Shown piece by piece: positions 4,831 through 8,572 of a stretch of 8,572 nt of DNA (positions are counted from its first letter, which is position 1; every line of letters starts with the position of its first letter). This DNA comes from a bacterium. GTDB taxonomy: Bacteria > CAIJMQ01 > JAADFP01. The translations under genes were made by a program, and so were the position numbers. The DNA is taken from assembly GCA_027021085.1 (NCBI GenBank), contig JALUVB010000123.1, positions 1-8,572 of the forward strand, read 5' to 3'. The notes beneath the pieces are model-generated. The model made no database searches, was not told the origin of the DNA, and saw only the letters and a list, made by a program, of their open reading frames with translations.

Positions 4831-5405
4831 GTCAGGAAGAAGTACGTCGTATATTTGAGGAGAAAGGTGCCCTGCTGAGAGGGCATTTTCGCCTTTCTTC
4901 AGGAAGACATTCTGATATTTATATGCAGTGCGCTCTTGTTCTGCAGTACCCGGAATTGAGCAGCAGGTTGTGTGAAGAGCTGGCAAGAAAGTTTAAGGGG
5001 GGAAGAGTAGAGACAGTAATAGGCCCTGCCATAGGGGGTATTATTGTCTCCTACGAGGTAGCTCGGCATCTTTCAGCTCGTTCCCTGTTCATGGAAAGGA
5101 AGGAAGGATGCATGACGCTCAGGAGGGGATTTCACATTGAGAAAGGGGAGAGGATTTTACTGGTAGAAGATGTAATTACTACGGGAAAATCGCTCAAGGA
5201 AGTGGAAGAAATAGTCAGAAAGAGGGGGGGAGAAATAATTGGCATAGGCTGCCTGGTAGATAGAAGCGAGGGTAAATCTCCCTTTGGTAAACAGGTGACC
5301 TCTTTAATCTCTTTAAAGACCAATGCCTGGGAGCCTTCACTCTGTCCTCTTTGCAAAAAGGGTGTGCCAATTACTACGCCCGGGACTCGTTTTTATTCAC
5401 GTTAA
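4827..5405 (+). CDS. pyrE: Orotate phosphoribosyltransferase
   Basis: Converts orotate and PRPP to orotidine 5'-monophosphate in de novo UMP synthesis; cytoplasmic, 192 aa, normal length for the family. The PRPP-binding loop LLVEDVITTGKS lies at residues 111-122. Other family segments are GHFRLSSGRHSDIYMQ (19-34), the IGPAIGGII strand-loop (65-73) and FMERKEG (88-94). The C-terminal part CPLCKKGVPITTPGTR (173-188), with its CxxC pair, is common in the longer bacterial and archaeal PyrE branch. The start overlaps the upstream stop as ATGA and has GAGGGA (4818-4823) just before it. The last 32 bp overlap the convergent kinase gene on the other strand. In this operon it would supply UMP and hence UTP for the neighbouring sugar nucleotidyltransferase; that link is inference. 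Confidence 0.95.
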   Translation: MSQEEVRRIFEEKGALLRGHFRLSSGRHSDIYMQCALVLQYPELSSRLCEELARKFKGGRVETVIGPAIGGIIVSYEVARHLSARSLFMERKEGCMTLRRGFHIEKGERILLVEDVITTGKSLKEVEEIVRKRGGEIIGIGCLVDRSEGKSPFGKQVTSLISLKTNAWEPSLCPLCKKGVPITTPGTRFYSR

Positions 5406-6228
5406 GTGCCCTTCTCTCTCTGGGAATGCTCTCGTGAAAATCTTCCCAGAATGACCATACATCTGGGTACCTGCGAAATGGCTCCTTTTCCAGGCATTTC
5501 ATTATGCACTTTCCCAGCTCGGCGGGGATGTTGTCCGTTGCCTCATGTACAGGCAACGGCTTAAAATTCAGGTGCTTGATAAGGATTTCCTCGGCTGAGT
5601 TGCCCTTGTAGGGAGTAACACCGGTTAACATCTGGTAAATAGTCACCCCCAGGGAATATATATCGCTTGCCGGGGTAAGAGGCTCTCCCTTTATCTGTTC
5701 GGGTGCCATATAGTGAGGGGTCCCCTTGGGTAAAACCTTGTGAAAATCTTTATGCCCGGAAGGATGAAAAAGGTCAAAATCACTTAACTTGGCAATATCA
5801 TTCTCGAAAAGAAGAATATTACTTGGCTTTATATCCCGGTGAATTACTCCTTTACGATGGATAAAATCCAGTGCACGCACTATTTGTCTTACCAGTGAAT
5901 AGACTTCTTCCACGGAAAGCTTCAAGCGATACATGAGATAAGTGTGAAGGCTGCCCTGCGTGGCCAGCTCCATGGCCAGGTAGTACGTTTTCCATTTTCT
6001 GCCCACTTCCAGGCCTTTCACCAAGTGCGGATGAGAGATGGAGAGAGAAAGTTTGGCCGAGCGCAAAAAGTATTCAATCCTGCGGTTTTTTTTCCACCCC
6101 GGACTTTCTACCACTTTTAATGCCACGTCTTTTCCGGAGGAAGTATCTTTTGCTCTATATACCGCTCCCATGCTCCCTTTTCCTATAAACTCATCCACGA
6201 CGTACCTGCCTAACTTTGTTCCTTTCAT
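5374..6228 (-). CDS. Soluble Hanks-type serine/threonine protein kinase with altered catalytic motifs
   Basis: A lone kinase domain of 284 aa from the ATG at 6228, with no transmembrane or sensor domain, so probably cytosolic. Visible motifs: glycine loop GKGSMGAVY (16-24 region), VALK with the ATP-binding Lys38, catalytic loop HRDIKPSN (130-137), MAPEQ (174-178) and DIYSLG (189-194). Two catalytic positions differ. The DFG motif reads DFD (150-152). An ungapped alignment by eye with PknB, using equal spacing from the VALK Lys, puts Ser57 where the helix-C Glu should be (LRSAK instead of RREAQ). It may be a weakly active or regulatory kinase, although HRD and its Asn are intact. A GTG two codons upstream (6232-6234) is an alternative start preceded directly by an in-frame stop. 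No Shine-Dalgarno is visible. Its 3' end overlaps pyrE tail-to-tail by 32 bp. Confidence 0.93.
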   Translation of the reverse strand: MKGTKLGRYVVDEFIGKGSMGAVYRAKDTSSGKDVALKVVESPGWKKNRRIEYFLRSAKLSLSISHPHLVKGLEVGRKWKTYYLAMELATQGSLHTYLMYRLKLSVEEVYSLVRQIVRALDFIHRKGVIHRDIKPSNILLFENDIAKLSDFDLFHPSGHKDFHKVLPKGTPHYMAPEQIKGEPLTPASDIYSLGVTIYQMLTGVTPYKGNSAEEILIKHLNFKPLPVHEATDNIPAELGKCIMKCLEKEPFRRYPDVWSFWEDFHESIPRERRALNVNKNESRA

Positions 6229-6237
6229 GGCCACTTA

Positions 6238-6266
6238 AGAATACCAGCTGGCAGGCAATAAATCAA
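6238..6266 (-). promoter_or_regulatory. Possible sigma70-type promoter of the kinase gene
   Basis: Reading the minus strand, TTGATT (6266-6261) and TATTCT (6243-6238) are separated by 17 bp. Transcription would begin only a few bases before the GTG/ATG start codons, which would make the mRNA leaderless or nearly so. That fits the absence of a Shine-Dalgarno. The match is short and could be chance. Confidence 0.3.
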
Positions 6267-6270
6267 GCAT

Positions 6271-6293
6271 AACGGGGTCAGGCTTGACCGCCT
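6271..6293. repeat. Small hairpin resembling dispersed GGTCA repeats
   Basis: GGTCA (6276-6280) and TGACC (6285-6289) form a 5-bp stem around GGCT. The surrounding GGGGTCAGGCTTGACC text resembles short dispersed intergenic palindromes seen in many genomes. Only one copy is in the window, so calling it a repeat is inference. Confidence 0.3.
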
Positions 6294-6330
6294 TAATGTA
6301 GAATAGACCTTGGCCCACAGACTTTATTCA

Positions 6331-6358
6331 GTAGCGGGTAGCGAGTAGTTAGTAGCGA
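6331..6358. repeat. Heptad tandem repeat, GTAGCGA type, block 1
   Basis: Four head-to-tail 7-bp units begin with GTAG and end in CGG, CGA, TTA and CGA. The first four bases are invariant and the last three vary. It opens the first composite repeat and is separated by 8 bp from the TAGAC block. Confidence 0.88.
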
Positions 6359-6366
6359 GGGGATTT

Positions 6367-6401
6367 TAGACTTTAGACCATAGACCTTAGACTGTAGACT
6401 G
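6367..6401. repeat. Heptad tandem repeat, TAGACYN type, block 1
   Basis: Five 7-bp units each begin with TAGAC and end in TT, CA, CT, TG and TG. The last part belongs to the 67-bp direct repeat shared with 6686-6752. A 6-bp spacer (GGAGAT) separates it from the AGTGAAC block. Confidence 0.9.
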
Positions 6402-6438
6402 GGAGATAGTGAACAGTAAGCAGTAAATAGTGAACAGT
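6372..6438. repeat. 67-bp direct repeat, copy A
   Basis: Matches 6686-6752 in the same orientation at an offset of 314 bp. There are two differences: TTTAGACC against TTTAAACC near the left end, and AGTAAAT against AGTGAAT near the right end. It spans most of one TAGAC block, the GGAGAT spacer and most of one AGTGAAC block. The similarity exceeds what independent heptad growth would give, so it points to duplication or gene conversion of a composite unit. Confidence 0.92.
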
Positions 6439-6442
6439 GAAT
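6408..6442. repeat. Heptad tandem repeat, AGTRAAY type, block 1
   Basis: Five 7-bp units: AGTGAAC, AGTAAGC, AGTAAAT, AGTGAAC, AGTGAAT. Degeneracy is confined to positions 4, 6 and 7. Confidence 0.9.
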
Positions 6443-6542
6443 AGATGGTTGGCACCCTGGTATCGTGGTAATCCTGGTTTTCTGGAATAGGATTCTGAGG
6501 GATATTAGGATTTGCAAGCATGATAAGTAACCAGCTCTACCT

Positions 6543-6569
6543 GTCATGCCTGCGGAAGCAGGCATCCAT
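6543..6569. repeat. Perfect hairpin with GGAA loop, dispersed-repeat-like
   Basis: ATGCCTGC (6546-6553) pairs perfectly with GCAGGCAT (6558-6565) around GGAA, a GNRA-type tetraloop if transcribed. It is flanked by GTC on the left and CCA on the right. This GTCATnCC...GGnATCCA arrangement is the layout of a common class of short dispersed intergenic repeats in bacteria. A longer relative seems to lie at 8497-8558 on the opposite strand. Confidence 0.7.
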
Positions 6570-6573
6570 AATT

Positions 6574-6601
6574 TAGACTATAGACTATAGACCTTAGACT
6601 G
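6574..6601. repeat. Heptad tandem repeat, TAGACYN type, block 2
   Basis: Four 7-bp units begin with TAGAC and end in TA, TA, CT and TG. It starts just after the GGAA-loop hairpin and is not followed by an AGTGAAC block, unlike the other two TAGAC blocks. Confidence 0.88.
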
Positions 6602-6652
6602 AAAGAGGAAATGCAGGATACAATATATAGGTGGGGGCATAGGCGGAACTGG

Positions 6653-6680
6653 CAACTAACAACTAACAACTCACAACTTT
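6653..6680. repeat. Heptad tandem repeat, CAACTAA type
   Basis: Four 7-bp units: CAACTAA twice, then CAACTCA and CAACTTT. It is the only block of this type in the window. The reverse complement is TTAGTTG, so it could be an inverted relative of the GTAGTTA unit. Confidence 0.88.
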
Positions 6681-6687
6681 CGGAGTT

Positions 6688-6715
6688 TAAACCATAGACC
6701 TTAGACTGTAGACTG
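6688..6715. repeat. Heptad tandem repeat, TAGACYN type, block 3
   Basis: Four 7-bp units: a decayed TAAACCA, then TAGACCT, TAGACTG and TAGACTG. It lies inside the second copy of the 67-bp direct repeat. Confidence 0.88.
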
Positions 6716-6721
6716 GGAGAT

Positions 6722-6749
6722 AGTGAACAGTAAGCAGTGAATAGTGAAC
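6722..6749. repeat. Heptad tandem repeat, AGTRAAY type, block 2
   Basis: Four 7-bp units: AGTGAAC, AGTAAGC, AGTGAAT, AGTGAAC. One unit shorter than block 1 and fused almost directly to the next GTAG block. Confidence 0.88.
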
Positions 6750-6750
6750 A

Positions 6751-6778
6751 GTAGTGAGTAGCGAGTAGATAGTAGTGA
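6751..6778. repeat. Heptad tandem repeat, GTAGCGA type, block 2
   Basis: Four 7-bp units begin with GTAG and end in TGA, CGA, ATA and TGA. As in block 1, the third unit is the most divergent (TTA there, ATA here). Confidence 0.88.
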
Positions 6779-6797
6779 GGGAGGAATAGATCCCTCC

Positions 6798-6834
6798 CCG
6801 CCTGTGCAGGCGGATATTCACCCCGAAAGTGGGG
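6798..6834. repeat. Two adjacent hairpins before the oxidase promoter
   Basis: CCGCCTG (6798-6804) and CAGGCGG (6807-6813) form a perfect 7-bp inverted repeat with a 2-bp centre. CCCC (6821-6824) and GGGG (6831-6834) flank GAAAGT. No T-tract follows, so a classical terminator is not supported. The first hairpin shares the CCTGC/GCAGG core with the one at 6546-6565. Confidence 0.55.
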
Positions 6835-6853
6835 ATTTGGCTGCGCCTCATAT

Positions 6854-6881
6854 TTGACATTCACCTGATGCCTGTGATACT
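6854..6881 (+). promoter_or_regulatory. Sigma70-type promoter with extended -10 for the oxidase gene
   Basis: A perfect -35 hexamer TTGACA (6854-6859) is followed by a 16-bp spacer and GATACT (6876-6881), a 4/6 match to TATAAT. TG at 6873-6874 supplies the extended -10 element. Transcription would start near 6888 and leave a leader of about 100 nt before ATG 6989. Confidence 0.55.
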
Positions 6882-6988
6882 TTTGGCTAAGATTAGACAT
6901 CTTTTCGTGTAGCTTATGCCAGATGCTTTAGCAGAAAATACGAGAGAAAGACATCACACAGTTTAGGGGTAAGGACCCAGGCCAAATC

Positions 6989-8416
6989 ATGATTATAAAA
7001 AAGGACAAAGAAGAGATACTTTCCTACCTGGAGGATGCCTCCAATTTTCCTCCGGGAAAAGCAGAGGCGCTGTTTATCCCGGAAAATGAAGCCGAATTAA
7101 GAGAAATCCTCCTGGATTGTGCAGGGAAGAGAATTCCCCTTACCATATCAGGCGCAGGAACAGGAACAGTAGGAGGCAGAATTCCCTCTTCAGATACGGG
7201 GGGATGCATCCTATCGCTGGAAAAACTTTCCTGCATCAAGGAAATAAATGAAAAAGAAAAGAGAGCAGTTCTGGGTGCCGGAGTTGTAATAGAGGAGTTT
7301 TTAAAACGCCTGGAATCCAAGGGGCTTTTCTACCCTCCTTTTCCCACAGAAAGAACTGCTTTTATTGGCGGTAATGTAGCTACCAATGCTTCCGGAGAAT
7401 ACAGTTTCTATTTCGGAGCTACACGCAGGTATGTAAAAAGAATTAAAGTTTTCCTCTCCGGTGGGGAAGAATGGAATCTTAAAAGGGGAGAGTTCAGGGC
7501 AAATGCGGATGGTGTTATAAAGATAGGAGATAGGAGAATACGCATACCAGGTTATACAAGTCCTGCTATTAAAAACTCTGCCGGATATTATTCTGCACCG
7601 GGGATGGACCTGATAGATCTCTTTATCGGCTCAGAAGGCACACTGGGAGTGATAACAGAAGTAGAGGTGGAAATCATCCCTTCTCTTCCGCCCAGGTTTA
7701 TTGCGGTAGCCTTCTTCCGGGAAAAGAAAGCCCTGCAAGTGGTAGGAGAAATTAAGAAGAGGAAAGAGCTTTCTCCTCTATCTCTGGAATATTTTGACAG
7801 AGAAAGTCTGCGTTTCCTGCAGAAAGATTTTCCCTCTATTCCCGCTGGTTCCGTAGAGGCACTTTATATTGAAGATATAGAAGATAACCTGGAAGAATGG
7901 GCAGAGTTCCTGGATGAATTTTCTCCTCTGGACAACTGGATTTCCCTGGATGAGGTAAGCTACAGGAAACTTATCAATTTAAGATACCGCCTTCCCGAAA
8001 ATGTGAATGAATACTTCAAACACCTGGGCTCCCACAAGATAGCCCTGGATATCGCTGTGCCTGAAGACAAATTCCCCTCTCTCTTTAATTACTACGAGGA
8101 AATCAGGGAGAAGTATTCTGTGGAAGGGGTAATATTTGGCCACATAGGAGAAGACCACCTGCATTTTAACCTGTTTCCTTCCAACCTGAGCAGGGAAGAG
8201 ATTGAGGATATTTATACTGAGGCAGTGAAATTCGGTATCTCCCTGGGAGGGACAGTCTCAGCTGAACATGGCATAGGGAAAACCAAGCACAAATATCTTG
8301 CCCTGATGTACGGAGAAAAAGGAATACAGGAAATGGTTAGGGTAAAAAAAGAGATAGACCCCTGGATAATTCTGGGGTTGGACAACATCTTTCCCCATAC
8401 TCTTTTACAAAGATAA
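6989..8416 (+). CDS. GlcD-like FAD-linked oxidase (D-lactate/glycolate dehydrogenase type)
   Basis: 475 aa flavoprotein that probably oxidises a 2-hydroxy acid such as D-lactate or glycolate; no signal peptide, so cytosolic or peripheral to the inner membrane. The FAD-binding PCMH domain shows SGAGTGTVGG (54-63), IGGNVATNASG (127-137), NSAGY (196-200) and SEGTLGVITE (215-224). The C-terminal cap has GHIGEDHLHFN (384-394), the family's metal/substrate histidines, and AEHGIGKTK (425-433). The usual NPGK-type ending after the conserved DP is GLDN here. The length is normal for GlcD/Dld. GlcD enzymes often work with an Fe-S partner (GlcF-like), which is not seen in the window. ATG 6989 is preceded by AAGGA (6971-6975), about 13 nt away, which is longer than ideal. 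The exact substrate cannot be read from the sequence. Confidence 0.9.
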   Translation: MIIKKDKEEILSYLEDASNFPPGKAEALFIPENEAELREILLDCAGKRIPLTISGAGTGTVGGRIPSSDTGGCILSLEKLSCIKEINEKEKRAVLGAGVVIEEFLKRLESKGLFYPPFPTERTAFIGGNVATNASGEYSFYFGATRRYVKRIKVFLSGGEEWNLKRGEFRANADGVIKIGDRRIRIPGYTSPAIKNSAGYYSAPGMDLIDLFIGSEGTLGVITEVEVEIIPSLPPRFIAVAFFREKKALQVVGEIKKRKELSPLSLEYFDRESLRFLQKDFPSIPAGSVEALYIEDIEDNLEEWAEFLDEFSPLDNWISLDEVSYRKLINLRYRLPENVNEYFKHLGSHKIALDIAVPEDKFPSLFNYYEEIREKYSVEGVIFGHIGEDHLHFNLFPSNLSREEIEDIYTEAVKFGISLGGTVSAEHGIGKTKHKYLALMYGEKGIQEMVRVKKEIDPWIILGLDNIFPHTLLQR

Positions 8417-8572
8417 GGAGAGAATTCCCGCGGTGCCTCAGGATAAACCATAAAAGTATATCTTTGGCACAACACCCAAAACTAATTTTCGCCTCTGCCT
8501 GTCCATATCCCGCTTTCACCTCGGAGTCGGGCTGCGCGGGTATGACATGCGGGCAGGCTTGCTGCTGCAAAT
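8417..8572. other. Non-coding tail after the oxidase gene
   Basis: No open frame with family likeness and no clear intrinsic terminator. A weak GTGCC (8433-8437)/GGCAC (8466-8470) pairing spans a long loop without a T-tract. Confidence 0.5.
8497..8558 (-). repeat. Imperfect palindrome, dispersed-repeat-like
   Basis: Outer arms GCCTGTCC (8497-8504) and GGGCAGGC (8551-8558) pair with one G-T type mismatch. Inner arms CATATCCCGC (8504-8513) and GCGGGTATG (8536-8544) pair with one bulged base. On the minus strand it contains GTCATACC (8546-8539), 7/8 identical to GTCATGCC at 6543-6550. It therefore looks like a longer member of the same repeat class with an enlarged loop. Confidence 0.55.

Follow-up and report, generated by a model that had tools for sequence, protein, structure and literature searches.

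The intergenic region at 6321–6795 of the window (the whole stretch of 8,572 nucleotides analysed here, contig C123 of the draft genome G000) is probably a copy of a dispersed, non-coding composite repeat that has been duplicated, as a block or as modules, into many intergenic gaps. The composite is real and genome-wide, and its heptad repeats are of a known kind, period-7 arrays being known in many bacteria. G000 is a 1.93 Mb draft of 307 contigs with 94% completeness. One genome per species was compared, including a separately deposited MAG of the same genus (G001, Caldisericota bacterium isolate M_MaxBin.041, 86% complete, which includes contig JAADFP010000050.1). Since G001 was labelled Caldisericota by its depositor, the lineage of the window was regarded as that of a Caldisericota-type uncultured bacterium. 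Genome-wide statistics were obtained from approximately 505 kb of stretches in G000, 20 of which were picked for containing matches (half of this sample was match-chosen), and from a 687 kb sample of G001.

The repeat region occupies the gap between two divergent genes, which encode a Ser/Thr protein kinase (Pkinase; 5374–6234, minus strand) and an FAD-linked oxidase (FAD_binding_4 and FAD-oxidase_C, GlcD-like; 6989–8416, plus strand). Direct counting at 6330–6779 confirmed the eight blocks and 34 units that the initial annotation had described, which belong to four families of heptads and share period 7, and their intergenic location was confirmed as well. TRF identified seven 7-bp arrays within the same interval, the previously described blocks being slightly merged or split. 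The match frequency at lag 7 across 6321–6800 was 0.478, compared with about 0.19–0.29 at other lags except the harmonics 14 and 21, and with a maximum of 0.342 in 2000 Markov-1 simulations. On a common strand, the families read AGTCTAN (a), AGTRARY (b), AGTAGYG (c) and AGTTGTN (d), with AGT or GGT in a fixed phase in all four; in the window, a and d are located on the minus strand, and b and c on the plus strand. A universal AGT core was considered and rejected, as a reversed control (TGAN4 x6) was found in about 33 of 193 genomes versus 25 for AGTN4 x6, and, by a rough estimate, the probability that four random heptads have some trinucleotide in common is near 0.07.

The leftmost block of the composite, which is delimited by BLAST depth and collinear copies, is a c block of four units (6330–6358). 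It is followed by a conserved spacer of the GGGGATT type (6359–6364), present at c-a junctions of other sites as GAGGGGGATTT or variants of it. A minus-strand a block of five units (6365–6400) is then separated by the spacer GGGAGAT (6401–6407), identical or near-identical at most sampled a-b junctions, from a b block of five units (6408–6442). The next segment is a non-heptad linker (6443–6540), repeated in G000 at a depth of 21–55 and almost absent from the G001 sample, which leads to a REP-like palindrome, TGTCATGCCTGCGGAAGCAGGCATCC (6541–6568), the end point of several copies of the left module. To its right are a second a block of four units (6573–6600, minus), a second linker (6601–6652) repeated elsewhere at a depth of at least 11, and a d block of four units (6653–6679, minus; CAACTAA on the plus strand). 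A third a block of four units (6687–6714, minus), a second copy of GGGAGAT (6715–6721) recognised by spacer comparison, a b block of four units (6722–6749) and, in phase with it, a c block of four units (6750–6779) complete the composite. Spacers, linkers and palindrome are given on the plus strand; all blocks were supported by TRF and direct counting, except the third a block, which was identified by direct counting. The linkers, the palindrome (ATGCCTGCGGAAGCAGGCAT) and the recurrence of the whole stretch elsewhere in the genome were missing from the initial annotation. Two reverse-strand ORFs, 6293–6565 (90 aa) and 6544–6900 (118 aa), cross the arrays because the heptad units contain no stop codons in that orientation; neither had a Pfam match, and both are probably spurious genes of automatic annotation. 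Linkers 5′ of the palindrome resemble degenerate octad repeats of the GTATCCTG type, as seen at L033 (3923), L038 (11501), L088 (9034) and 6455–6480 of the window.

A 530-bp query spanning the region returned 89 matches in its own genome. In the 505 kb of G000, 82 period-7 arrays were detected, compared with 0–3 for other non-harmonic periods between 4 and 20 (the harmonic 14 excepted) and none of period 7 in Markov-shuffled sequence. Forty contigs taken by number alone and not for matches (234 kb) contained 16 period-7 arrays, and at a lower threshold all 110 of 110 arrays in the G000 sample fell into the four families. The same families were present in G001, with 48 arrays at a score of at least 13 in 687 kb, together with a rarer GTATCCT family; period 8 ranked second there among the non-harmonic periods (13 arrays). 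The four families, for which a joint search of the genome and its relatives had been suggested, therefore recur together in G000 intergenic regions and in G001, and the possibility that the blocks occur only here was refuted by this recurrence within G000 and in a separately assembled genome of the same genus. Among 84,980 species genomes, from which the records of G000 itself may have been left out, the a-b composite was found only in the same-genus MAG and in one contig of a 'Geoglobus' MAG, and phages and plasmids gave no match. The 'Geoglobus' contig (L120, JALUWC010000114.1) carries a b-a composite and the same palindrome; it probably derives from this bacterial lineage and was misbinned. 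Some G001 gaps (L215 1764–2306, L227 and L239) contain an extra repeat, AACTCGT..GGTTGGGGTT..AACGTTATACGTAAGTCGTCCACCG, beside heptads and palindromes, which is absent from the window.

That the mosaic was copied ready-made, not grown in place from several seeds, follows from the block order, orientation, spacers, linkers and unit-variant order common to many sites. In the recurring layout, c is followed after about 11 nt by a on the opposite strand and, 7–8 nt further on, by b, often with an in-phase c next; d is frequently located 1 nt from a. The conserved spacers are GGGAGAT (or GGGGAAGC) at a-b junctions, GAGGGGGATTT at c-a junctions and AGTCCAAG at a-d junctions. Across 6101–7100, BLAST depth in the own-genome sample was zero outside approximately 6301–6820, including the flanks 6101–6300 and 6821–7100, and exceeded 10 throughout the non-heptad linkers; depth counts over the arrays are inflated because heptads match each other. 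Collinear copies extended to 434 aligned bases in G000 and to 418 in one case in G001, and many shorter copies ran only as far as the palindrome, terminating where it ends near 6568. Arrays of families a, b and c at different sites agreed in the order of their unit variants to a degree that none of 500 within-array shuffles reached. Copy numbers were low and narrow (3–6 units for a, mostly 3–4 for c and 3–5 for d). Many sites contained only part of the composite, and modular reshuffling also occurs. Since neither an end of the element nor a target-site duplication could be delimited, copying as a block rests on shared order and not on a mapped insertion.

The distribution of the arrays was analysed with a simple ORF caller (ORFs of at least 130 aa) and not a curated gene set, by which 171 of 175 arrays in the G000 sample and 112 of 126 in G001 were located outside ORFs. 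Heptad-bearing gaps were longer (median 455 versus 206 bp), and convergent gaps were somewhat enriched among them (7/30 versus 9/98 in G000; 12/54 versus 17/163 in G001). Among 25 aligned G000/G001 gaps with flanks of 78–89% identity, 12 or 13 contained heptads in at least one species, and the heptad content was not conserved between species. Clear differences in gap size at aligned sites included 8 versus 543 bp and 192 versus 39 bp, and the near-empty sites could be deletions. Six aligned gaps, which were diverged and not polarised for gain or loss, showed no target-site duplication.

The REP-like palindrome is closely associated with the heptads. It was found in 31 copies in the G000 sample (window included) and 42 in the G001 sample, often in inverted pairs, and was present in 17 of 30 heptad gaps versus 0 of 98 other gaps in G000 (p = 2e-13), and in 19 of 54 versus 7 of 163 in G001. 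Nested palindromes, with a second palindrome in the loop or arm of the REP-like one (e.g. TGCGAAAGCCCCGATATAAACCGGGACAGGCAGGAATGACA), were observed at L239, L203 and L205 in G001 and at L033, L038 and L072 in G000. The block copying might have taken place in trans, with the composite as a non-autonomous element that a RAYT-like HUH (Y1) transposase mobilises through its palindrome; the co-occurrence of palindrome and heptads by gap and the termination of several copies at the palindrome both agree with this possible route. Moreover, G000 encodes at C45 a Y1 transposase-domain protein of 225 aa (PF01797, above the Pfam cut-off), weakly similar to a solved TnpA-REP (E 0.0007); approximately 370 bp downstream of its gene lie a palindrome and a short array of family b. 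However, this protein scored 62.9 against the NCBIfam REP-associated transposase model, below its cut-off of 80, and no Y1 gene was found in G001 (86% complete), where palindromes are as many. Neither a constant GTAG nor a CGTC tag was seen by eye at the palindrome end, the adjoining sequence varying among CTACC, CCACC, CGCA and TTCT, and no excision or target site was mapped. We therefore regard this explanation of the composite as possible but unlikely. Within the stretch downstream of the Y1 gene, a palindromic motif, TTACACCCCGGGGGTGTAA, occurs twice, at L246 140–160 and 580–600, at either end of that stretch.

A further-reaching proposal, in which heptads and palindrome together would form a new non-autonomous mobile element with the heptads as working parts and not passengers, is very unlikely on present evidence; the heptads might then provide an HUH transposase or a repair polymerase, for example, with repeated contact sites. 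If true, the unexplained prevalence of period 7 among bacteria would be tied to the mechanism of a mobile element.

A fixed 7-nt-step process, either slippage or a protein or RNA reading 7-bp steps, could instead have worked independently on several seeds at each site. The initial annotation had preferred one such mechanism because unrelated microsatellites would not be expected to share a period. Consistent with it, period 7 is exclusive in this genome, unrelated heptads are adjacent in unrelated bacteria, and 7-base gaps between G000 copies are in local excess (16, versus 9 and 8 for 6- and 8-base gaps, in alignments that are not independent). However, single-base gaps predominate, and a heptad-step process is only weakly visible in this genome; the arrays are also short with narrow copy numbers. 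Separate action on several seeds was contradicted by the conserved spacers, collinear copies, linker depth and unit-variant order, so that this model is rather improbable, and a protein or RNA that reads 7-bp steps is neither needed nor supported. The recurrence of the four families thus stood, and a single mechanism acting separately on several seeds became unnecessary for this site. The expectation of unshared periods also failed, as many other bacteria have unrelated heptads next to each other. Across 49 loci (140 kb) of other genomes, chosen for one heptad array, 20 further period-7 arrays were located nearby, compared with 0–3 arrays at other non-harmonic periods, and the neighbouring heptads differed in sequence (for example at L252, L256 and L267). 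Evidence for seeds shared across phyla was weak at best and the idea was dropped: outside the genus, the family a pattern was found in 5 genomes versus 4 for its reversed control, and family b recurred in 10 versus 2.

Heptads are reported to be over-represented in bacteria and to form the commonest class of 5–11 nt repeats in most genomes; the reason offered was the length of the DNA stretch that the polymerase holds (Mrazek 2007, cited by PMC4679880 and PMC4692102). In view of this known general bias, a period shared across families is not surprising.

The arrays might also serve in regulation, as operators or in translational control, a role proposed for the TAACTGA repeats of Beggiatoaceae; the confinement of the arrays to intergenic DNA and the divergent genes on either side of the gap at 6321–6795 are in line with this. 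Divergent gaps were not enriched for heptads, however (5/30 versus 15/98 in G000; 6/54 versus 30/163 in G001), and the arrays were not kept in the aligned gaps of the two species. The region had no Rfam match, and its fold was unremarkable on the plus strand (z −0.8) and modest on the minus strand (z −2.0, unconvincing after two tests and partly due to the palindrome), so that a structured RNA was rejected; regulation is a highly improbable explanation. An assembly or binning artefact, suggested by the excess of arrays near contig ends (16/79 versus an expected 8.5%), is hardly conceivable given the arrays within long contigs with unique flanks and the same four families and layout in a separately assembled and deposited MAG, which refuted the artefact that the initial annotation had allowed for.

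Under the preferred reading of a composite copied as a block, short arrays of the four families would have been joined to the REP-like palindrome in the order c, a (minus), b, linker, palindrome, a (minus), linker, d (minus), a (minus), b and c, and the whole composite, or modules of it, would then have been copied into many intergenic gaps. The arrays may first have been born from the general bacterial bias for 7-nt duplication, usually attributed to polymerase slippage. Afterwards, the copies would slowly gain or lose single units, and the block may persist as nearly neutral sequence where no gene or promoter is disrupted. Transposition in trans, gene conversion and break-repair filler are candidate copying routes. 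The block structure separates two processes that are usually lumped, the origin of heptads and the spread of ready-made arrays, and seemingly 'independent' microsatellites in one genome can be copies of each other.

The arrays share with bacterial heptanucleotide SSRs or STRRs the tandem 7-nt units (at least three, well above chance) and the many, mainly intergenic copies. They resemble the TAACTGA repeats of Beggiatoaceae, Cyanobacteria and some Bacteroidetes (MacGregor 2015, PMC4679880) in being short intergenic heptad arrays. Mixed heptamers within single gaps, reported there for Microcystis, Gramella and Elizabethkingia, and relatives with shorter, repeat-free gaps are common to both systems; between-strain indels in 7-nt steps are described for TAACTGA (PMC4679880). 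In the orange Guaymas Maribeggiatoa, one unit dominates directly upstream of start codons (PMC4679880), whereas the composite described here combines four degenerate families and a REP-like palindrome in a fixed order. The TAACTGA unit occurs in none of the four families, and placement several nucleotides upstream of start codons was not found: there was no bias to divergent gaps, and the window arrays stop about 96 bp from the kinase start and about 210 bp from the oxidase start. Several families of short heptad arrays in one genome are also known from the STRRs of filamentous cyanobacteria, for which PMC4692102 cites three heptanucleotides from Calothrix PCC 7601; lineage and units differ, and within the open-licence literature available no fixed composite is described for STRRs. 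The G-rich heptads GGGAATC in Xanthomonas and GGGGA(C/T)T in Nostoc (PMC4692102) are likewise intergenic, length-variable between relatives and sometimes arranged as inverted pairs, but they are G4-forming arrays of one unit type, and the units of the composite contain no G-tracts. As in REP, BIME and REPIN sequences with RAYT transposases (PMC3116915, PMC3733652), the palindrome is short (in the range of about 20–40 bp), intergenic in many copies and often in inverted pairs, with a Y1 gene near one copy; it differs from them in having no constant GTAG or CGTC tag visible by eye and in being embedded in heptad composites. Outside the composite, an inverted repeat, GGTCAGGCTTGACC, is located immediately beside it at 6262–6290 of the window, where GGGGTCAGGCTTGAC had no further copies in the sampled contigs. 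A further palindrome of like style (TATCCCGC..GCGGGTATGACATGCGGGCAGG) lies at 8500–8560, downstream of the FAD oxidase gene.
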